Shown: positions 8,133 through 17,449 of the stretch, in pieces | How the letters are laid out: each line of letters starts with the position of its first letter | Position numbering within the stretch: the first letter of the stretch is position 1 | Source of the DNA: Candidatus Woesearchaeota archaeon | GTDB lineage: Archaea > Nanobdellota > Nanobdellia > Woesearchaeales > UBA525 | Length of the DNA stretch: 19,484 nucleotides | Direction: 5' to 3' | NCBI GenBank assembly: GCA_003694385.1 | Contig: RFKA01000013.1 | Location: forward strand, 1 to 19,484 | Notes under the pieces: generated by a model | What the model was told of the DNA's origin: nothing | The model's input: only the letters and a program-made list of their open reading frames with translations | Database searches by the model: none | Position numbers and translations under genes: made by a program

Positions 8133-8591
8133 TCACATAGTCATGAATTCGCTCGTACTGCCATCGCGCTGCACTGCATAAATAGTCCAAGAGCCTCTCT
8201 TCGAGCCAGGCATCCCGGGCGACCCGGAAGGCATGCCTGGGAGCGCGATACCAGCGATGTCAGGTTGCTCTGTTACGAGCTTCGCTATCGCCTCAACAGG
8301 AACGTGTCCTTCGACGAAGTAATCCCCGACCTTTGTTGTGTGGCAGCTCTGCATGTCCTGAGGCACGCCGAACCGTTCTTTCACCCCTTCCATGGTCTCG
8401 ACTTGCTGCACCGTGACGGCAAATCCTTGTTTCTCAAGGTACTGTGAATAAATACCACAACAGCCACAGTTCGCTGATTTGAACACGACCACTTCACCTG
8501 TCGGCAAGTCACCAACAGCCACTTTTTGTGCACAGCTCGCGATCAGCAGGAGGCTGACGAGCAGGAATACAACACTTCTTCTTGCTTTCAT
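8133..8591 (-). CDS. DUF411 metal-binding-type lipoprotein
   Basis: 152 residues from the ATG at 8591. The ATGA overlap with the previous gene's stop and a GGGAGGG site decide against the longer frame to 8609. A signal peptide with a lipobox-like end (LLIASC, C20) suggests membrane anchoring through a lipid. The DUF411 signature is complete: CGCC at 42-45 in a thioredoxin-like strand-turn-helix, SCHTTKVGDYFVEGHVP at 82-98, then LPGMPSGSPGMP at 118-128. DUF411 proteins are associated with copper resistance and probably bind copper through these Cys/His residues; that metal is family knowledge, not shown here. Translation is probably coupled to the upstream lipoprotein. Confidence 0.9.
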   Translation of the reverse strand: MKARRSVVFLLVSLLLIASCAQKVAVGDLPTGEVVVFKSANCGCCGIYSQYLEKQGFAVTVQQVETMEGVKERFGVPQDMQSCHTTKVGDYFVEGHVPVEAIAKLVTEQPDIAGIALPGMPSGSPGMPGSKRGSWTIYAVQRDGSTSEFMTM

Positions 8592-9064
8592 TCTTTTTCC
8601 CTCCCCCACGTGAAGATTCTCTCCTCCACTTTCGGGACACCCTCTATAATGATGGAATAGGAGTCCAAGTCTTGGCCAACATCGAAGACGAGCGTGCCTG
8701 AGACGTGATGCCCTCTCAGACTCGGTGCCTCGAGCGGCTTCACGCTCCGCCCTGCAAACTTGAGTGTCGTTCTTTCTTTCAGGTCAAACTGGGAGAGCAT
8801 GACTGAGTGCGTGTTCATCGAAATGTCAACTGAGAGCTTGCCATTCACAACTCCCCTCGGGGTGAGTTCGATCAAAACATCACCCATAGCAGTGCTTCCT
8901 GTGGTCCTCGTAATGCGCAGCCCTTCATTGTCGGGCTCGCTGCTATCCCCTCCACTAAAGTCGCCACGGGCCTGCAAGTCTGCACCCTTGGTTTGTCCGG
9001 AGCACCCCGCGAGCACGAGCATTCCGAGAAGCCCCGCGAGGAAAACAATGAGGAGCGGTTTCAT
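8588..9064 (-). CDS. Exported lipoprotein with a GHH-containing beta domain
   Basis: 158 residues. Signal peptide with lipobox LAGC (C21), then a short Gly/Ser/Asp-rich linker (to about 47) and one beta-rich domain (50-155). The domain shows the pattern NTHSVMLSQFDLKE (84-97) and SLRGHHVSGTLVF (115-127). I recall this domain from exported proteins next to copper and redox genes, but it has no name I can give with certainty. The paired His in GHH and the THS may bind metal or may be structural. The start ATG at 9064 overlaps the previous stop (ATGA), so translation is coupled; a longer frame to 9139 has no support. It overlaps the DUF411 gene by 4 nt. Confidence 0.8.
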   Translation of the reverse strand: MKPLLIVFLAGLLGMLVLAGCSGQTKGADLQARGDFSGGDSSEPDNEGLRITRTTGSTAMGDVLIELTPRGVVNGKLSVDISMNTHSVMLSQFDLKERTTLKFAGRSVKPLEAPSLRGHHVSGTLVFDVGQDLDSYSIIIEGVPKVEERIFTWGREKE

Positions 9065-9471
9065 ACCTTCACCCCCACAATCCTGTCTTTGAGGTAGACC
9101 CCCGCACCAGCAAGCACGAGAGCCCCGCCAATTGTCCAAAAGAGTGCTTGGAACTGTTGCAGTGATTGCAAGGGGATTCCCGCGATTATGAACCCACTAT
9201 TCACAACGAGGAGCGCCTTCGAGATGCACTGTTTCTTCAGCGAGAAATAGGCTGCAATGCCAAGGAGCACGAGCGCCGCACTCCAGAGAGGAAGCGCGAT
9301 TTTCGTGAAAAACATTAACGGCATCCCCGTGAGCGTGATGCCCACCATGCTCAGAGCAGCAACGAGGCCAAGACAAATATTATGGCAGACTTGCCAAGAG
9401 CCCAGGATACTCGCTGCGCCAGAAATGCTTCCTGTTGCCCCTATCATCCGTTCTTTGAGGTTTGTAATCAT
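9061..9471 (-). CDS. Four-helix membrane protein with conserved cysteines
   Basis: 136 residues, first gene of the minus-strand envelope operon. The ATG at 9471 is preceded by GGAGGAAGG at ideal spacing; the open frame reaches 9507, but only the inner start has a ribosome site. Membrane helices lie about 33-49, 55-77, 86-103 and 109-126. Cysteines are in WQVCHNICLG (C29, C33, spacing three) and KKQC (C82), at the membrane borders. The Cys-in-helix design recalls small mercury or copper transport proteins such as MerT/MerC, but I cannot establish homology. The operon order (Cys membrane protein, lipoprotein, DUF411, HCPLC protein) supports a metal or thiol role. Confidence 0.75.
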   Translation of the reverse strand: MITNLKERMIGATGSISGAASILGSWQVCHNICLGLVAALSMVGITLTGMPLMFFTKIALPLWSAALVLLGIAAYFSLKKQCISKALLVVNSGFIIAGIPLQSLQQFQALFWTIGGALVLAGAGVYLKDRIVGVKV

Positions 9472-9480
9472 GTCCTTCCT

Positions 9481-9492
9481 CCAAGGCCTTGG
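9481..9492. repeat. 12-bp perfect palindrome before the operon start
   Basis: CCAAGGCCTTGG lies immediately upstream of the GGAGGAAGG ribosome site of the minus-strand operon. It could be a protein-binding site or form a weak RNA stem (CCAA/TTGG). No evidence for either beyond position. Confidence 0.4.
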
Positions 9493-9562
9493 CCTCCTGC
9501 CGCCCATAATTTCCGCTTCTCAGGGGCCGAAGCACCCGTTTCATGCACTCGTAAAGCAAAAC

Positions 9563-9578
9563 CTTGTTTAAATACAAG
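9563..9578. promoter_or_regulatory. CTTG-TTTAAATA-CAAG palindromic promoter motif, copy 1
   Basis: Inverted repeat CTTG/CAAG around a box A core TTTAAATA, lying between the minus-strand envelope operon and the Cache-DUF835 gene. Read on the minus strand it is a box A whose transcription start would be near 9542, giving the operon a leader of about 70 nt. A weaker AAATTATG nearer the gene is an alternative promoter. Copies of the motif lie at 9607-9620 and 11431-11446. Confidence 0.55.
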
Positions 9579-9606
9579 AAGAAAATACAGGGAAAAAATA
9601 GGGAAA

Positions 9607-9620
9607 CTATTTAAAACAAG
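9607..9620. promoter_or_regulatory. Promoter motif, copy 2 (Cache-DUF835 gene)
   Basis: CTATTTAAAACAAG, which on the minus strand reads CTTGTTTTAAATAG and differs from copy 1 by one inserted T and the last base. As a plus-strand box A (TATTTAAAA) it is centred 26 nt before the ATG at 9638, so it is the promoter of the sensor gene. Confidence 0.55.
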
Positions 9621-9637
9621 TATTTTTCTCGGCGCCG

Positions 9638-11377
9638 ATGGGGGGACGTATCAAAGAGCATGGGCCGCTGCTCCTGCTCCTGCTCTCACTCTTCATTGTC
9701 GGTCTCATCATCTTCTCTAACTTCCTCTCGTTCATGAAGATACAGGCTGTTGTCGTAGACCTGCTCGCCGAAAACCAGCACACACAGACGATCCACGCCG
9801 CGGGCCGGATGGAGAACCACATCCTCCAAGTGAAGGATGAGCTGCTCGCACTCAGCAAGGTCCCAGCGGTCAGCACACTCGGCGTAGAGAGCTGCAGTGA
9901 CACCCCGCACGAATGGGTATCAACGACGCTCGACGCCTTCATGCGCGCCGACAAAGACGGCGACATTGTTGCGTGCACCTCCAAGCGATTCTCAGGGTTT
10001 CTCGGCCTGAACATCAAGAACAAAGACTACTTTACGCAGCCGCGAGACACGGGAGAACCGTTCATCGCGGGCACCTTTGGGCAAGACATATCGCCCCAAA
10101 TCATCGTCTCAGTCCCCATCTTTGCGCGCGCAAGATACACGCCTCTTTCTCGTTATGGAACCCACTACCTCGAGGAGTTCAATGGGACGCTCTTCACGAT
10201 TATCGACCTTGACTACCTCTACAACCTGTACATCCATCCTTATGTCAGGGCGGGGAAGAATTCTTTTCTTTTCTACGATGTCGCTACAGGAGAGACGCTG
10301 CTTAAGAGTCCAGATATTGAACCCTACGAAGTCCTAAAGGACAAACTCCCTATTGGGGATGAGCTTGTTGTTGGTTTTGATACTTGGGGGGAAACCATTA
10401 TTACCTCATCAGAGATTATTCTTGGGTCTAAACGCTTCCGTCTCATCATCCTGACGCCCCTCAAAGAAGCCTCTGAAGACATGGTTTCGTTGCAGTACCG
10501 ACACCTCTTCAGCTTGTTTTTTATTCTTACAGTGGGGATTATCATGACGGTCTTCCTCGTGCGCCTCTTCAAATCAAGGGAAGAGGCTCAGGCGAAGCTG
10601 AGACAGGCAAGCATTACGCTTGAGCGCTATGGGATACAAGGGTCGCTCGAAGAGGCGAAATACGCCGATGCTGACGTCTCCCTCGCGTCCGGCAAAGTAT
10701 ACCTCATTAAAGAAGAGGGCGAGAACCACGCCCACGAACTCTTTATCAGCTCTCTGAACAAGGGTTATGTCGGCTTGGGAGTCATCCGTGAAAACCCTGC
10801 TGTCTTCAGGGAGCGCTACAACCTCGAGAAAACAGCACTCATCTGGATGACGAAAGCTAAGCCAGCTGATGTGCCGGCCGAGACAGATATTCGCGGGCTG
10901 TATACCTTAATCGCCGAATTCGTACAAAAAAACGAGAAGTGTGTTATCCTCTTGGACCGTATGGATTATCTCATCTCTGAGAATGACTTCGCGACAGTTG
11001 TTCGCGTTCTCCATTCTCTTAACGACCTCATCTTGCATAAGGATTGTATCATCATCCTCTCCGTCAACCCCCGTCTCGTTTCAGAGGCGCAGCTGGGAGC
11101 GCTCGAGGCGGAAGCCATCGACTACTATGGCAAACAGTTGGAGAAGCGTGTCGCCCTATCAGAGAAAGAACTGGGAATCCTGCGGTACATCAATGAGCAG
11201 AACGTGAAGAACAAGCTCGTCACCTATGGAGCTATAACTGCTCAATTCAAGATTACAAAGCCCACGACGCGCGTGAGAATTCAGAAACTCGCGGACCTTG
11301 GTCTCGTGCGTGTCGAACAAGTCGGGCGCTTCAAATCCCTCAAAGTCACTTCTGCAGGTCGAAGAGTCCTTCGCTAG
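9638..11377 (+). CDS. Transmembrane Cache sensor with DUF835 and winged-helix DNA-binding domain
   Basis: 579 residues. Membrane helix 1 (11-30) and helix 2 (289-310) enclose an extracytoplasmic dCache-type sensor domain (about 36-285; ADKDGDIVACTS at 104-115, LNIKNKDYF at 124-132, late QIIVSVPIF strand). Inside the cell follow a short coiled segment (313-345), a DUF835 domain (352-495; KVYLIKEE, GLGVIRENP, then VILLDRMDYLISENDF at 436-451) and a winged helix-turn-helix (505-579; TRVRIQKLADLGLVRVE plus a wing, FKSLKVTSAGRRVL). One polypeptide thus joins an outside ligand sensor to a DNA-binding head with no kinase or receiver. The ATG is 26 nt after box A, probably leaderless. Its position between two envelope operons with related promoter motifs makes it their likely regulator (inference). 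Confidence 0.85.
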   Translation: MGGRIKEHGPLLLLLLSLFIVGLIIFSNFLSFMKIQAVVVDLLAENQHTQTIHAAGRMENHILQVKDELLALSKVPAVSTLGVESCSDTPHEWVSTTLDAFMRADKDGDIVACTSKRFSGFLGLNIKNKDYFTQPRDTGEPFIAGTFGQDISPQIIVSVPIFARARYTPLSRYGTHYLEEFNGTLFTIIDLDYLYNLYIHPYVRAGKNSFLFYDVATGETLLKSPDIEPYEVLKDKLPIGDELVVGFDTWGETIITSSEIILGSKRFRLIILTPLKEASEDMVSLQYRHLFSLFFILTVGIIMTVFLVRLFKSREEAQAKLRQASITLERYGIQGSLEEAKYADADVSLASGKVYLIKEEGENHAHELFISSLNKGYVGLGVIRENPAVFRERYNLEKTALIWMTKAKPADVPAETDIRGLYTLIAEFVQKNEKCVILLDRMDYLISENDFATVVRVLHSLNDLILHKDCIIILSVNPRLVSEAQLGALEAEAIDYYGKQLEKRVALSEKELGILRYINEQNVKNKLVTYGAITAQFKITKPTTRVRIQKLADLGLVRVEQVGRFKSLKVTSAGRRVLR

Positions 11378-11430
11378 ACCGCAGAGCGTCTTAAGGAGTG
11401 ATTTTCCCCTTTTTTTCACCAAAATTTATT

Positions 11431-11446
11431 CTTGTTTAAATACCAG
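11431..11446. promoter_or_regulatory. Promoter motif, copy 3 (second envelope operon)
   Basis: CTTGTTTAAATAC is identical over 13 nt to copy 1, and the right arm is CCAG instead of CAAG. As a box A it predicts a transcription start near 11465, about 133 nt ahead of the first gene of the operon. Confidence 0.55.
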
Positions 11447-11464
11447 GTCTTATGTTCTTACCTG

Positions 11465-11597
11465 CATGCTTAGCTAGTGCAGAGGGGTTTCACCTAACGC
11501 CTTGCTACAGTGGCACGCGCAATGACTACGCGTAATGACTCGTAGGGGTGTTGGGTAGTGCACAGCTGGCATGGTGCAGTAAGCAGAGGGTTGAATA
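11465..11597 (+). other. Long foldable 5' leader of the second envelope operon
   Basis: Between the predicted start and the ATG at 11598 lies a leader of about 133 nt with nested pairing. GCTTA (11468-11472) pairs with TAAGC (11580-11584). TGCA (11478-11481) pairs with TGCA at 11559-11562 or 11575-11578. ACCTAAC (11492-11498) pairs with GTTGGGT (11550-11556). CTACG (11526-11530) pairs with CGTAG (11541-11545). The GAGGG before the start codon is left outside the stems. Other single genes here look leaderless, so a leader of this length is exceptional. It matches no riboswitch I know. The pairing was found by eye only. Confidence 0.4.
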
Positions 11598-12389
11598 ATG
11601 GAAGAGAAATCAAATACAAAACAACGGGCCAGAAGTACTCACCGAACCCGAAGGGCAAGGAGACACGGCCGGAGAAAAGAAGAGAATCTGTTAACGGCGC
11701 CAGTCATCGTGCTGCTCGTGCTTGCGGGAGCACTCATGCTCTTTAACCAGTTTCAGATAAGGAGCATCTCGTCACTGCTGGACGGAGGGTCGAATGGAGG
11801 CTCGACGAGCTCTCGTTCAGGAGCTTCCGGCTCAGTTGAACTGGCAGCTGTCGACGTGAATCTGCTCCAATCAACCGCGCAGACCGTCGCTGCAGTCTTT
11901 CCAGAACTCTCTGACGCTCAGACTGCGGATGAGGTCATGGGTGTGTTGTTCCCCACAGGCACGCCGCCGTATGGTGAGGACCTCGGGGTGAGCTTTGATG
12001 AACCCGTGGCTTCGCTGGCGAAGCTCGCGAAGATGTACCGCCCCCTCAAGGCAGAAGTCGAGGAGAAAGACCCTGAGGCGTTCCAGCGCTTTGTGAATCT
12101 CGCTTCAAAACCACGGGGCGTCTCCTGCGAGTTCTGTTGTGGCGTCGGCCCGGCAGGGGCTGACAGCAAAGGAAACTCTCGCTGTGGCTGCCAGCACAAT
12201 CCCGCCGTCCTTTCCGTCGCGCTCTACCTGACCGCGTACACAGATTATACTGACGCGGAGATTCTGCGTGAAGTCATGAAATGGAAGACGCTGTTCTTCC
12301 CGAAGAACATGATTGACATCGGCTCAAAAATCGCGGGCGGAGACACGTCCGTGCTGAAAAACCTGCCAGGAATGGTGGGTGGATGCTAA
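11598..12389 (+). CDS. Membrane-anchored Cys-rich protein ending LPGMVGGC
   Basis: 263 residues. A strongly basic N-terminus (RRARRHGRRK) precedes one membrane anchor (about 33-49), so the rest lies outside the membrane. A Ser/Gly-rich linker (62-79) leads to a domain with LFPTGTPPYGEDLGVSFDEP (117-136) and a Cys/His cluster: CEFCCG (C177, C180, C181) and CGCQH (C196, C198, H200). A conserved-looking helix YTDAEILREVMKWKTLFFPK (217-236) follows, and the protein ends in NLPGMVGGC. The cluster looks like a metal site or a set of redox thiols. I recall related CGC-H / WK-FFP proteins in archaea but know no name. GAGGG precedes the ATG. It is the first gene of the operon, and its stop is 14 nt before the next ATG. 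Confidence 0.8.
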   Translation: MEEKSNTKQRARSTHRTRRARRHGRRKEENLLTAPVIVLLVLAGALMLFNQFQIRSISSLLDGGSNGGSTSSRSGASGSVELAAVDVNLLQSTAQTVAAVFPELSDAQTADEVMGVLFPTGTPPYGEDLGVSFDEPVASLAKLAKMYRPLKAEVEEKDPEAFQRFVNLASKPRGVSCEFCCGVGPAGADSKGNSRCGCQHNPAVLSVALYLTAYTDYTDAEILREVMKWKTLFFPKNMIDIGSKIAGGDTSVLKNLPGMVGGC

Positions 12390-12403
12390 GGAGGTACGTG
12401 AAC

Positions 12404-12619
12404 ATGAAAACACAAACAATCGTAGTTGTTGTACTGATAGTGCTTGTACTTGCGTCAGCGGTGCAGGCGTTCCAATTGCAGAGCCTGAAAGGGAAAATTG
12501 CTGACGGGCAAGTCACTGCAAGTGTGAGTCCATCAGTTGCATCCTCACCCGAAAACGGTAAAACCTCTGCACTCCCAAGCAGCATTAAGGATTTACCGCA
12601 AATGGTGGGGGGGTGTTAA
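12404..12619 (+). CDS. 71-aa anchored peptide ending LPQMVGGC
   Basis: A small protein with an N-terminal hydrophobic helix (about 5-23), a short coiled segment and a Ser/Pro-rich linker. It ends in KDLPQMVGGC, nearly the same last eight residues as its neighbour's LPGMVGGC. The C-terminal Cys is its only cysteine. The frame is open from 12383, but the ATG at 12404 is preceded by a perfect GGAGGT at suitable spacing, so that start is used. It may be a carrier, competitor or cleaved product relating to the larger neighbour; function unknown. It looks like the membrane anchor and tail of the preceding protein without the middle domain. Confidence 0.75.
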   Translation: MKTQTIVVVVLIVLVLASAVQAFQLQSLKGKIADGQVTASVSPSVASSPENGKTSALPSSIKDLPQMVGGC

Positions 12620-12761
12620 GCCCTCTCACTTTTTCGAGGTGAACACAACGGCGCAGAAAGCGCCCAATTGAAGCAAAAACACGAAGCAAAACTATTGTGA
12701 CCGCTATTCGTGTCCACTATTCATATCCACCACACATTACGATCACTCGGGGGGTTCCTCC

Positions 12762-13883
12762 ATGAAAAAGAAAAAACAATCGGGAAGTTACCTGCCAATC
12801 ATCCTCGGCATCCTTGTGACAGCCATCGTAATCTTCAACATTCTCCAGCTTGCCTCTCTGAATGCGCGCATCAAACAACAAGCAGCCGAACGTGCAGAGG
12901 CTGCGCGGCCAGCAGATTTAGAGCTCATCCTCCTCGACCCCGCGTGTGAGGCGTGCGTTGATGTCCAGCCAGTCATTGACCTCGTCAAGCGTGCCAATAC
13001 GCGTATCACGAGCGAGCGCACAGTGGCGGCTGACTCAGCCGAGGGAAAAGAGCTCGTCAAGAAATACTCGCTCACAGCCGCACCGAGCATCATCCTTCTC
13101 GGCGAAACGGAGAAATTCTCGTCACAGGAATTCACGGAGCGCGGCGACGGCCTCGTCTTCGAGCCTTCAACCCCGCCCCTTGTTGATCTCTCTACTGGTG
13201 AAGTTACAGGCCTCGTCAGTGCAACTATTCTCACGGATAGTTCCTGCGATGTCTGCCAGGGTCTTGACGGAGTCCTTTCTCGCCTTCAGCAAATCGGCGT
13301 TGTCGTTTCCGCACGGGAAACCGTTGAGCGTGACAGCCCCGCTGGCAGGGCACTCATCAAGGACTACGCGCTCACAAAGCTTCCCGCACTCATTCTCTCG
13401 AAAGAACTGGCTGATTATGGCTCTGCTGTCGAGAAGCTCTGGCTCCAAGCGGGGCGGAAGGCGCCTGACGGTGCCTATGTACTCGAGCAACAAACACCCC
13501 CCTATGTCGAGGCTGCTACGGGCGAGATCCGTGGCCTCGTTACGATGACAGTTATCACCGACCCCGCTTGCGCCACGTGCTATGATACAGAGGCCTTCAA
13601 CAAGCCCATCCTGCGACGCTTTGGTCTCGTCCCAAGCGAGACGCGGCGCGTGAATGTCTCAGACGCCAAAGAACTTATTGACCGCTATGCTATCGAACTC
13701 GTTCCAACGTTTCTCCTCTCGAGCGAAGCCACCCTCTACTCAGGTCTCGTGAGGGTTTGGCCTCGTGTTGGCACGGTCGAGGAGGATGGGACTTATGTGT
13801 TCCGGAACCCCGCGGTCTCGAGGCAACCCTACAAAAACCTGACTTCGGGAGCGATTATCAACCCTGCAAGCCAGGCTTCCTGA
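12762..13883 (+). CDS. Membrane-anchored protein with three thioredoxin-like domains
   Basis: 373 residues. A basic start and one anchor (10-30) precede a coiled linker and three tandem units. Each begins with a strand and a CxxC: DPACEACVD (C62, C65), DSSCDVCQG (C162, C165) and DPACATCYD (C270, C273). About 43-46 residues later each has the proline typical of the cis-Pro strand (AAPSIIL P108, KLPALIL P208, LVPTFLL P315). The units are joined by a repeated linker, TPP.V...TGE..GLV (138-151 and 246-259). The fold is probably thioredoxin-like outside the membrane, handling thiols or metal. The ATG follows a GGGGGGTT run. A gap of 142 nt before it holds no gene I can see. CcdA begins 12 nt after its stop, so electron transfer from CcdA is a reasonable inference. 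Confidence 0.82.
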   Translation: MKKKKQSGSYLPIILGILVTAIVIFNILQLASLNARIKQQAAERAEAARPADLELILLDPACEACVDVQPVIDLVKRANTRITSERTVAADSAEGKELVKKYSLTAAPSIILLGETEKFSSQEFTERGDGLVFEPSTPPLVDLSTGEVTGLVSATILTDSSCDVCQGLDGVLSRLQQIGVVVSARETVERDSPAGRALIKDYALTKLPALILSKELADYGSAVEKLWLQAGRKAPDGAYVLEQQTPPYVEAATGEIRGLVTMTVITDPACATCYDTEAFNKPILRRFGLVPSETRRVNVSDAKELIDRYAIELVPTFLLSSEATLYSGLVRVWPRVGTVEEDGTYVFRNPAVSRQPYKNLTSGAIINPASQAS

Positions 13884-13894
13884 GGTGTGGCCTG

Positions 13895-14851
13895 GTGCGA
13901 GTCTTGAACGTTTTTCTCGTTCTTTTTTTGCTCCTGCTCTCCTTGCACGCAGTACTCGCCAGCGAGGATGCCTTGCCCATTGGCTTGCAGAAGATTATCG
14001 ATTATAATAACCGGAGCACTGCAGATTTCGCACTGAAGATATCGTTTTTCATTGCCTTCGTCGCGGGTATGTTGGGGATCCTCTCACCCTGCATCCTCCC
14101 TTTTCTTCCCGCGTATTTCTCTTATACATTTAAAGAGCGAAAGGACATCACTAAGATGACACTTGTCTTTTTTCTTGGCTTCTCTCTGGCATTCGTTTCC
14201 ATGGGTGTCGTCGCGGGCTTCCTCGGTGCTCAAGTCCTCCTCGCCGTCCAGAGTGGCTGGCTCGTGACCATCGCCGGCCTTGCAATCATCGCTTTTGGTA
14301 TCATGTCCCTCTTGGGGAAGGGCTTCTCGTCTTTTTTGAAGATGCGGACTTTCAAGAGCGACGTTCTCGGCACTTTTCTCTTCGGCTTGTTCTTCGCTCT
14401 TGGTTGGACTGCGTGTTTGGGGCCCATCTTAGCAGGCATCCTGGGGATTGGGGCGGTTCTGCACGACCCGTTCACTTCTGGCGTGCTGCTCTTCTTCTAC
14501 TCGCTTGGTAACCTCGTTCCCCTCTTCGTCCTCTCCCTCCTCTATGATAAATTCAACCTGGCCGACTCCCGTTTCCTCAAAGGGCGTGTTCTGTCGTTCT
14601 CATTAGGAGCAAAGACGCTGCGTGTGCATTCTTTCAACCTCCTCTCAGGGCTCCTCTTTATGCTCATCGGCGCAGTCATGGTGGTTTTTCAAGGAACCGC
14701 AATCGTGAACGCGTGGGACATCTTCGGCACAAAGCAGTACTTCTACTCTCTGCAAAACTCCCTGCTCGCCTGGGAGTACGCCCAGCCAGTGAGCGCACTG
14801 CTTTTTTTCTCTTTCCTGCTCTTGCTTGGCTTCTTTTGGAGGCGTCGCTAG
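13895..14851 (+). CDS. ccdA: CcdA-type thiol-disulfide membrane transporter
   Basis: 318 residues from a GTG with GAGGTG seven nt before it. The longer open frame to 13757 overlaps the thioredoxin-like gene and is not supported. An N-terminal signal-like helix (1-22) is followed by the CcdA/DsbD membrane domain with its two catalytic cysteines: GILSPCILPFLPAYFSY (C66) and GWTACLGPILAGILG (C174). Helices fill about 47-70, 88-110, 121-140, 158-184, 195-216, with two more near the C-terminus. CcdA carries electrons from cytoplasmic thioredoxin to extracytoplasmic proteins. The gene directly upstream encodes three CxxC domains that could be the acceptor. It is the last gene of the operon, followed by an A/T-rich stretch with a T-run (about 14864). 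Confidence 0.9.
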   Translation: MRVLNVFLVLFLLLLSLHAVLASEDALPIGLQKIIDYNNRSTADFALKISFFIAFVAGMLGILSPCILPFLPAYFSYTFKERKDITKMTLVFFLGFSLAFVSMGVVAGFLGAQVLLAVQSGWLVTIAGLAIIAFGIMSLLGKGFSSFLKMRTFKSDVLGTFLFGLFFALGWTACLGPILAGILGIGAVLHDPFTSGVLLFFYSLGNLVPLFVLSLLYDKFNLADSRFLKGRVLSFSLGAKTLRVHSFNLLSGLLFMLIGAVMVVFQGTAIVNAWDIFGTKQYFYSLQNSLLAWEYAQPVSALLFFSFLLLLGFFWRRR

Positions 14852-15668: not shown

Positions 15669-17449
15669 TAGCTCGCGTAGTACAGCTTGCCGCTCGCCTT
15701 TTGCTCGCGGTCCTTGACGCTGCCCTCCTTATTGACGCGTGGACGGTGACTCTCCTCGTCGCGACGGAACGTGATGTTGAGCCCTTTGAGGAAGCGGTTC
15801 ATGCCCTCGCTCATGCTGAACGGTCCGCGCGCCACTCCTCGCTTGCCCGGCTCCCCCTCAAAGACGATGAGCTTCTCGCTCAGGTAGTCGATGAAGAGGA
15901 TGTCGTGGTCGACGACGAGGCAGGCCTTGCCTTTCGCCGCCATCATCTCGCGCGTGATTTTACTCATGAGCAGGCGTTGCTCGACATCAAGATAGGCACT
16001 CGGCTCGTCGAGGAGGTACAAGTCGGCTTCTTCGGCGAGCTTCGCCGCGATGATGACGCGCTGGAGCTCGCCGCCCGACAACTGCCCGAGCGTTTTCTCG
16101 AAGAGAGGCTGGAGGGCGAGCGGCGCGATGAGTTGGTGTTCGTACGCGAGCGCGTGCTGGAGCACTTCCCCCACCGTTTTCTCCGCGGAGAAGCAATCGG
16201 CTTCTTCGAGGTACTGGGGCTTGTAGCTCACCTTGAGCGCGCCCGCCTTCGTCTCGGCTTCGATACGCGCGAGCGTTTTCACGAAGCTCGTCTTGCCGAT
16301 ACCGTTCTCGCCGAGCACCCCGATGACGTCGTGCTTGTCAATGCGTCCTTCGCTCGCGGTGAGCGTGAAGTTGCCGAGCTGTTTCTCGATTGCTGGCCAC
16401 GTCACGAGCTGCTCGTCACTCGGCCGGGCGTCGTGTGCGTGCACGCTGAACTGTACCTTCTGGTCCCGGAAACGCACATTCTCTTCACGGAGATACCCTT
16501 CGAGGTACACATTGATGCCTGCTTTCGTGCTCTTGGGCTGGCTCACGATGCCGTAGCCGCCTTCTTGCCCGTACATGATGTGGATGAGCTCTGTCATGTA
16601 GTCGAGGATGATGAGGTCGTGGTCGATCACCATCACTGCTGTGTGTTCATCGGCGAGGCTACGGAGAAAATGCGCGACGCTGATGCGCTGCTTGATGTCG
16701 AGGTAGCTCGTCGGCTCGTCGAAGAAGTACACGTTTGCTTTTTTCAGTACCGTCGCGGCGATTGCGACGCGCTGGAGCTCGCCGCCGCTGATAACGCCGA
16801 TGTCGCGTTCGAGGATGTTTGCGAGCTGGAGTACCTCCGTGACTCGTTTGAACTCCGCGTCGCCTTTCTCATTCGCCTTGCCGAGGAGCTCTCTGACTGA
16901 TCCCTTGAAGGCTTTCGGGATGTGCTCGACTTGCTGCGGCTTGTAGCTCAGGACAATCTTGCCGTCGCGGAGCTTCTCGAAGTAGCCCTGTGCTTCGCTG
17001 CCTTTGAAGCGCTCGATGAGTTCATCATACGGCGCTTTATTCTCTTCCCCGTTTCGTTCTCTGCCGAGGTTCGGTTGGAGAATGCCCGCGAGAATCTTCA
17101 CTGCTGTCGACTTGCCGATGCCATTGCGGCCGAGGAGGCCGACGACTTTGCCCATGATGGGGACGGGGAGGCGGTAGAGTGCAAAGCCGTTTTTGCCATA
17201 GCGGTGAATCGGTGCCTCTGTGAGCTCGCTCGGGAGATTGATAAGCTTTAGGGCTTGGAACGGGCACTTGTTGACCGCGATACGGTCGATGTCGCTGACG
17301 AGCTCTTCATTCACGCCAACCTTGCCATCCTCATCCTTATAGAACGCTTCTTTGCCCGCGCGGTTGCTCGGGCTGACGCGTGTGCAGAGGAAGCCGCCGC
17401 AGCCTTCCGGGTTGCACTTCTCCTTCTCGACGATGACGATCTTCGGCAT
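15668..17449 (-). CDS. abce1: ABCE1 ribosome-recycling ATPase with a reduced Fe-S domain
   Basis: 593 residues from the ATG at 17449, usual length for ABCE1 (Rli1), which splits ribosomes after termination and is essential in archaea. Twin ABC cassettes are intact: Walker A GRNGIGKST (107-115) and GENGIGKTS; signature ISGGELQR and LSGGELQR; Walker B FFDEPTSYLD and LLDEPSAYLD; switch His in VIDHD and VVDHD. The N-terminal Fe-S domain is altered. It normally has eight Cys in two motifs. Here only C12, C17, C22 and C62 remain; the CP cysteine of the first motif is Ser (VSP) and the first three of the second are gone (EELVSDIDRIAVNKCP). The four left are those expected to bind one cluster. Box A at 17471-17480 lies 27 nt upstream, so the MEFVAR extension to 17467 is rejected. 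Confidence 0.95.
   Translation of the reverse strand: MPKIVIVEKEKCNPEGCGGFLCTRVSPSNRAGKEAFYKDEDGKVGVNEELVSDIDRIAVNKCPFQALKLINLPSELTEAPIHRYGKNGFALYRLPVPIMGKVVGLLGRNGIGKSTAVKILAGILQPNLGRERNGEENKAPYDELIERFKGSEAQGYFEKLRDGKIVLSYKPQQVEHIPKAFKGSVRELLGKANEKGDAEFKRVTEVLQLANILERDIGVISGGELQRVAIAATVLKKANVYFFDEPTSYLDIKQRISVAHFLRSLADEHTAVMVIDHDLIILDYMTELIHIMYGQEGGYGIVSQPKSTKAGINVYLEGYLREENVRFRDQKVQFSVHAHDARPSDEQLVTWPAIEKQLGNFTLTASEGRIDKHDVIGVLGENGIGKTSFVKTLARIEAETKAGALKVSYKPQYLEEADCFSAEKTVGEVLQHALAYEHQLIAPLALQPLFEKTLGQLSGGELQRVIIAAKLAEEADLYLLDEPSAYLDVEQRLLMSKITREMMAAKGKACLVVDHDILFIDYLSEKLIVFEGEPGKRGVARGPFSMSEGMNRFLKGLNITFRRDEESHRPRVNKEGSVKDREQKASGKLYYAS

Follow-up and report, generated by a model that had tools for sequence, protein, structure and literature searches.

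Can the ribosome-splitting ATPase ABCE1 do with one of its two [4Fe-4S] clusters? The question is raised by a window of 19,484 nucleotides (the whole stretch of DNA analysed; contig RFKA01000013.1, assembly GCA_003694385.1) from a Candidatus Woesearchaeota archaeon of the order Woesearchaeales. Within this window a single ABCE1/RLI gene lies on the minus strand. Canonical ABCE1/Rli1 proteins (P. abyssi 3bk7, yeast Rli1, human ABCE1) have eight conserved cysteines in an N-terminal ferredoxin-like Fe-S domain, hereafter the arm; the window protein has four of the eight and lacks the other four, one complete ligand set. We numbered the ligands I to VIII and assigned I, II, III and VIII to cluster I and IV to VII to cluster II, for ABCE1 by homology; this is the ligand topology of the S. 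tokodaii ferredoxin (PMC2946596).

The earlier note on this DNA had claimed that C12, C17, C22 and C62 are ligands I, II, III and VIII and that IV to VII have been replaced. The alignment to P. abyssi ABCE1 (phmmer, window residues 3–592), whose first block, residues 3–105, is free of gaps, bears this out together with the codons. All four kept cysteines are encoded by TGC (C12 at 17414–17416, C17 at 17399–17401, C22 at 17384–17386, C62 as in Table 1), and the arm thus has a complete cubane ligand set, as a ferredoxin-like domain with a single [4Fe-4S] cluster should. Ligand columns V, VI and VII hold S52 (17294–17296), D55 (17285–17287) and A58 (17276–17278); if Glu48 is taken as an anchor, which implies a one-residue loop insertion, column V is V51, so that there is no cysteine in either alignment. 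The whole protein has six cysteines (residues 12, 17, 22, 62, 419 and 510), and by alignment no kept cysteine of the arm falls in a cluster II column. In the structural model of the arm (predicted local distance difference test score 83–92 per 10-residue block over residues 1–80) residues 53–60 form a helix, and models put a helix in place of each lost loop.

Could cluster II still be bound, by serine and aspartate (S26, S52, D53, D55)? Aspartate is known as a cubane ligand (PMC2946596), and the four arms of the window's type, A1 (see below), in alignment A3 have S26, D53 and D55 in common. The replacements vary by lineage, though, with S, N or D at position IV and varied residues at V–VII, and the loop is modelled as helix; we regard this reading as very improbable.

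The remainder of the protein is that of an ordinary ABCE1. Read from its MPKIV start it has 593 residues (599 from an upstream GTG start); it scores 758.9 bits against the RLI equivalog NF009945 (cut-off 469) and has the overall fold of a complete ABCE1, the arm included. PF00005 matches it in two stretches, and a motif scan found Walker A and B, signature and H-switch intact in both ATP-binding cassettes, plus the C-terminal KDREQK, in agreement with the earlier statement that both ATPase cassettes are intact. Pfam Fer4_RLI (PF04068), by comparison, gives 15.9 bits with the whole protein and 20 bits with the arm alone, below the cut-off of 23; one-cluster arms may escape remark for that reason.

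To see how common such arms are, the eight cysteine columns were scored in relatives, as the earlier note had proposed. In the order, 275 genomes had an ABCE1 match; N-termini came from 267 (not fetched: G008, G027, G038, G040, G055, G170, G177, G232), five proteins without an N-terminus (G295, G250, G096, G098, G102) were dropped, leaving 262, and removal of two cut at the start (G180, G268) left 260 readable ones, among them G004, cut at residue 17. Fragments from G183 and G221, found later, are outside the count. The automatic cysteine counter misread some rows; by eye G127, G131, G224, G079, G319, G323 and L073 were assigned to the eight-cysteine class and G302 to those that have lost the cluster II set.

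The census gave 171 proteins with eight cysteines, 40 with the cluster II set lost, 42 with the cluster I set lost and 7 without one ligand. Among the 40, none of IV–VII is left in 22 and one orphan cysteine is retained in 18. Among the 42, I–III and VIII are gone and IV–VII kept in 40, the other two being G199, which retains VIII, and G150, which also lacks V. The one-cluster state is not peculiar to the window protein but is widespread. Arms with the cluster I set only, the cluster II set only or both occur, sometimes within one family (f82), and genus g37 holds both-cluster and cluster-II-only arms. No N-terminus of the 260 has lost both sets; if the losses were independent 6.5 double losses would be expected, with a probability of 0.00045 of seeing none when relatedness is ignored.

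The state extends beyond the order. From other orders of the class, where 20 of the 28 genomes with an ABCE1 match were fetched, 13 proteins have eight cysteines, one lacks V and six have lost set II with aspartate at position IV (two of these, G311 and G313, retain VII). A search with such an Asp-bearing arm returned 56 proteins, with Asp at IV in 55 and Cys in one (P0300); three cysteines precede position IV in 55 (P0293 lacks II), and the CP of ligand VIII is present in all 56. Of 314 aligned N-termini, from a retrieval biased by the queries and not freed of duplicates, 105 have Cys at I, II, III and VIII and at no other ligand position, and the four kept cysteines are invariant across a 48-protein alignment.

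The earlier note had held that a complete ligand set was removed and that this was not random decay. Four cysteines can be lost from eight in 70 ways, of which two are the ligand sets, and every counted loss of exactly four is one of these two. The existence of the reciprocal type, with I–III and VIII lost and IV–VII kept, argues for set-wise removal and not decay, and with 40 exact cases in 260 proteins it strongly supports that statement.

The sequences that replace the lost ligands, sorted by pattern and by eye, fall into seven types for set II (A1–A7, A5 being G280 and A6 G209), while set I has three or four (B1, KLKDM...; B2, FNPEN...; B3, in G279 and G199). Where the loss is of exactly four cysteines (A1, A3, A7, B1, B2 and B3/G279) each type corresponds to one of the two ligand sets. 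As the replacement types are visibly distinct, one-cluster arms seem to have several origins. All 39 proteins of alignment A6, most of which have lost set I, have a ninth cysteine that is not a ligand (C34), after CPxNR (ECI); the four A1 arms in alignment A3 have Ala at this position.

Table 1. Features of the ABCE1 gene in the window (all coordinates are window positions)
Feature	Position	Strand	Basis
ABCE1/RLI gene, type A1, without the cluster II ligand set (593 aa)	15671..17449	-	NCBIfam NF009945
N-terminal ferredoxin-like Fe-S domain (residues 1-75)	17225..17449	-	gapless alignment to P. abyssi ABCE1; model
Kept cluster I ligands C12, C17, C22 (I, II, III)	17384..17416	-	P. abyssi alignment, codons
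S26 at ligand IV position (cluster II)	17372..17374	-	P. abyssi alignment, codons
Residues 51-58 instead of ligands V-VII (cluster II)	17276..17299	-	alignment, model, codons
Kept cluster I ligand C62 (VIII)	17264..17266	-	P. abyssi alignment, codons
Walker A of first nucleotide-binding domain, NBD1 (residues 107-114)	17108..17131	-	motif scan
Walker A of second nucleotide-binding domain, NBD2 (residues 380-387)	16289..16312	-	motif scan

The earlier note had also named a sequencing error at the sites of the lost cysteines and a second complete ABCE1 in the genome as facts that would overturn it. All four congeners with N-terminal DNA (G001–G004, the last read from residue 17) show the cysteine pattern of the window, which rules out a sequencing error and, the pattern being common to congeners, decay as well. 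The window arm is 86% identical to that of G001 and 85% to that of G003, while the whole protein is 73% identical to those of G001 and G002; arm identity above whole-protein identity indicates that the arm is under constraint. Two of the congeners (L033 in G003, L030 in G004) have an in-frame insert of ∼40 residues in NBD1, near window residue 134–139. A second copy was rejected: in the 86.7% complete assembly (889,737 bases in 130 contigs) a single ABCE1 was found, and two further matches are partial ABC proteins with 28% and 37% identity. It could be argued that the window protein is a decaying or specialised paralogue and that the canonical ABCE1 is encoded in the portion which this incomplete assembly lacks. 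Yet fuller one-cluster genomes (G001, 93%; G296, 100%; G044, 99%; G011, 99%) have one ABCE1 match each, the ATPase motifs are intact and the arm is better conserved among congeners than the protein as a whole, so that we find this explanation barely credible.

Whether one-cluster genomes can still build Fe-S clusters was approached through SufB/D (PF01458), in batches of genomes that were hand-picked, not random, and that we treat as a lead only. In the first batch 40 of 53 one-cluster genomes had a SufB/D match, vs 9 of 27 eight-cysteine genomes (Fisher p 0.0005); over 10 independent pairs on the tree the difference did not reach significance (median p 0.375). In the second batch 41 of 80 genomes were positive, comprising 39 of 77 with eight cysteines (several by weak single matches) and two of three with partial sets. 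We rejected impaired Fe-S biogenesis as the cause: SufB/D is commoner in one-cluster genomes, the opposite direction, and since 40 of 53 of them have it, the one-cluster state is not explained by a lost Fe-S assembly system. In ten genomes (G063, G031, G237, G258, G134, G138, G288, G062, G247, G178) the SUFBD_core match is split by ∼1 kb, mostly within one very long frame; these interruptions look like SufB inteins.

The same counts bear on the idea that the arm has turned into a zinc-type module, with one metal ion, zinc or another, held by the four cysteines that remain. A small domain with four cysteines can coordinate Zn, and 13 of the 53 one-cluster genomes have no SufB/D match; the retained cysteines, however, make up precisely the two ligand sets of the cubanes, one complementing the other, and the 40 genomes with a SufB/D match include that of the window. 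We consider a zinc-type arm improbable.

From the sequence we infer both metal and activity: the window ABCE1 probably still splits ribosomes and has one [4Fe-4S] cluster, with a structural role. Its arm would be built to hold cluster I through C12, C17, C22 and C62, with the cluster II site gone as a whole and its loop, in the model, a helix of protein only. NBD closure swings the arm out, which leads to ribosome splitting (PMC6124641), and the one-cluster arm would still swing upon ATP-driven closure of the two NBDs. It should still work, as the clusters of ABCE1 are structural and not redox-catalytic (PMC8153317). Either cluster alone would keep the arm rigid, double loss not being tolerated, and it is plausible that a one-cluster arm is rigid enough in these archaea. 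Yeast with Rli1 mutated in one cluster or the other (C25S, C61S) lives without oxygen, but the double mutant is dead (PMC4523923). These results fit the sufficiency of one cluster but do not prove it. The two yeast mutations affect different clusters (PMC4523923), and these are laboratory point mutants without one ligand, unlike the natural loss of a whole set seen here.

Several points weigh against the reading of a single-cluster arm produced by set-wise loss. The orphan cysteines in 18 of the 40 set-II-lost proteins make set-wise loss imperfect; P0293 has lost II in addition to IV; and G150 (L311), without set I and V, is left with IV, VI and VII, an arm possibly en route to no cluster or possibly holding a three-cysteine cluster. 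The models are free of metal. The authors of the yeast study think that each single mutant, though one ligand short, still binds its clusters (PMC4523923), and a review treats both clusters as essential and their cysteines as important for yeast viability (PMC8153317).

How did the window protein come by its arm? In the tree of the NBDs the genus of the window joins G005, an eight-cysteine member of its own family (98/90), whereas in the arm tree all seven A1 proteins of the set form one clade (100/100), apart from G005. The approximately unbiased (AU) test rejected the A1 clade on the NBDs (p 8e-4), and with it a single origin of the A1 arm by whole-gene descent; the B1 clade without G276 was also rejected. 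On the arms it rejected three groups with closely related bodies, as well as the window genus with G005. When the ligand columns and their neighbours were removed the A1 and B1 arms stayed clades (100/97 and 98/92). In the clearest pair, from one genus, G241 (B1) and G043 (eight cysteines) are 32% and 51% identical in their arm segments and 78–82% in body segments; to G292, from a different family, G241 is 76–77% identical in the arm and 60% in the main body segment. The best breakpoint of G241 lies at residue 64–74. Breakpoint scans of two eight-cysteine controls showed none.

The conflict between the two trees suggests that these archaea have swapped arms as modules. As one arm sequence type sits on bodies of different descent, recombination near the arm/NBD1 boundary would probably have brought the window its arm, or have given two-cluster arms back to its kin. 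We read this as replacement of the arm by recombination, with parallel evolution as the main rival. Under the latter each lineage would have lost its ligands separately, with convergent sequences and no exchange of arms. The distinct replacement sequences (A2–A7, B2, B3) speak for it, since independent losses seem to occur; against it, B1 arms share the closely similar KLKDM...HIQSLCPVNR over 13 families, and the B1 and A1 clades persist without ligand columns yet are rejected on the NBDs. We consider parallel loss without exchange possible but rather unlikely.

Other features of these tests tell against exchange of arms, and the first two also lend weight to parallel loss. Without the ligand columns and their neighbours the arm-tree tests weaken (p 0.057, 0.022, 0.003, 0.017 and 0.0095 for five body groups, four of them still rejected at p<0.05). 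Best breakpoints scatter, lying at residues 61–100 in G241, G129, G292 and G287 and at residue 23 in G016. In the A1 proteins G118 and G296 they are diffuse (∼295–404), possibly reflecting slow evolution of the arm, and that of the window protein is at 69 with G200 as the donor type and at 148–150 with G063. The AU groups were named only after the trees had been seen; the first large tree (118 rows) was poorly resolved and served as background only, and the rows of the 37-row tree were chosen after seeing it. Taking both sides together, we incline to the view that in DPANN ABCE1 either cluster may be dispensable but not both, and that the Fe-S arm may be a mobile module, swapped by recombination and interchangeable on one body.

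Reduction of a dicluster fold to one cluster has a parallel in the monocluster bacterial-type ferredoxins, which are electron carriers and not a mechanical arm. A closer likeness is the ferredoxin-like domain of archaeal Rpo3, also of 2[4Fe-4S] type and part of an information-processing machine, which has two, one or no cluster motifs depending on the archaeon (PMC5300874). Rpo3 is a different protein, in M. acetivorans neither of its clusters is essential, and the available passages of that paper describe no exchange of arms. Among the literature matches listed, which mostly lie outside subscription journals, we found no description of a one-cluster ABCE1; none joined ABCE1 with Woesearchaeota, and only a release-factor review joined it with DPANN.

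In nine genomes, six of the same class (G304, G316, G320, G324, G326, G330) and three of the same order (G179, G192, G270), no ABCE1 above the family cut-off was found, only weak ABC ATPase matches; G316 is a single contig, 95% complete. ABCE1 may be absent from these genomes; a review abstract places it in all archaea (PMC6088178). In the window itself, positions 8133–14851 hold genes of DUF411, DUF835 and DsbD type, and another whose product has thioredoxin matches that are weak and below the cut-off; together they are perhaps a set for thiol or metal handling.

If the exchange of arms is real, a core translation factor would be modular and would recombine by domain, and Pfam-style annotation would overlook its one-cluster arms. 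Since cluster-I-only, cluster-II-only and both-cluster arms exist in nature, the role of each cluster could be tested by arm swaps.
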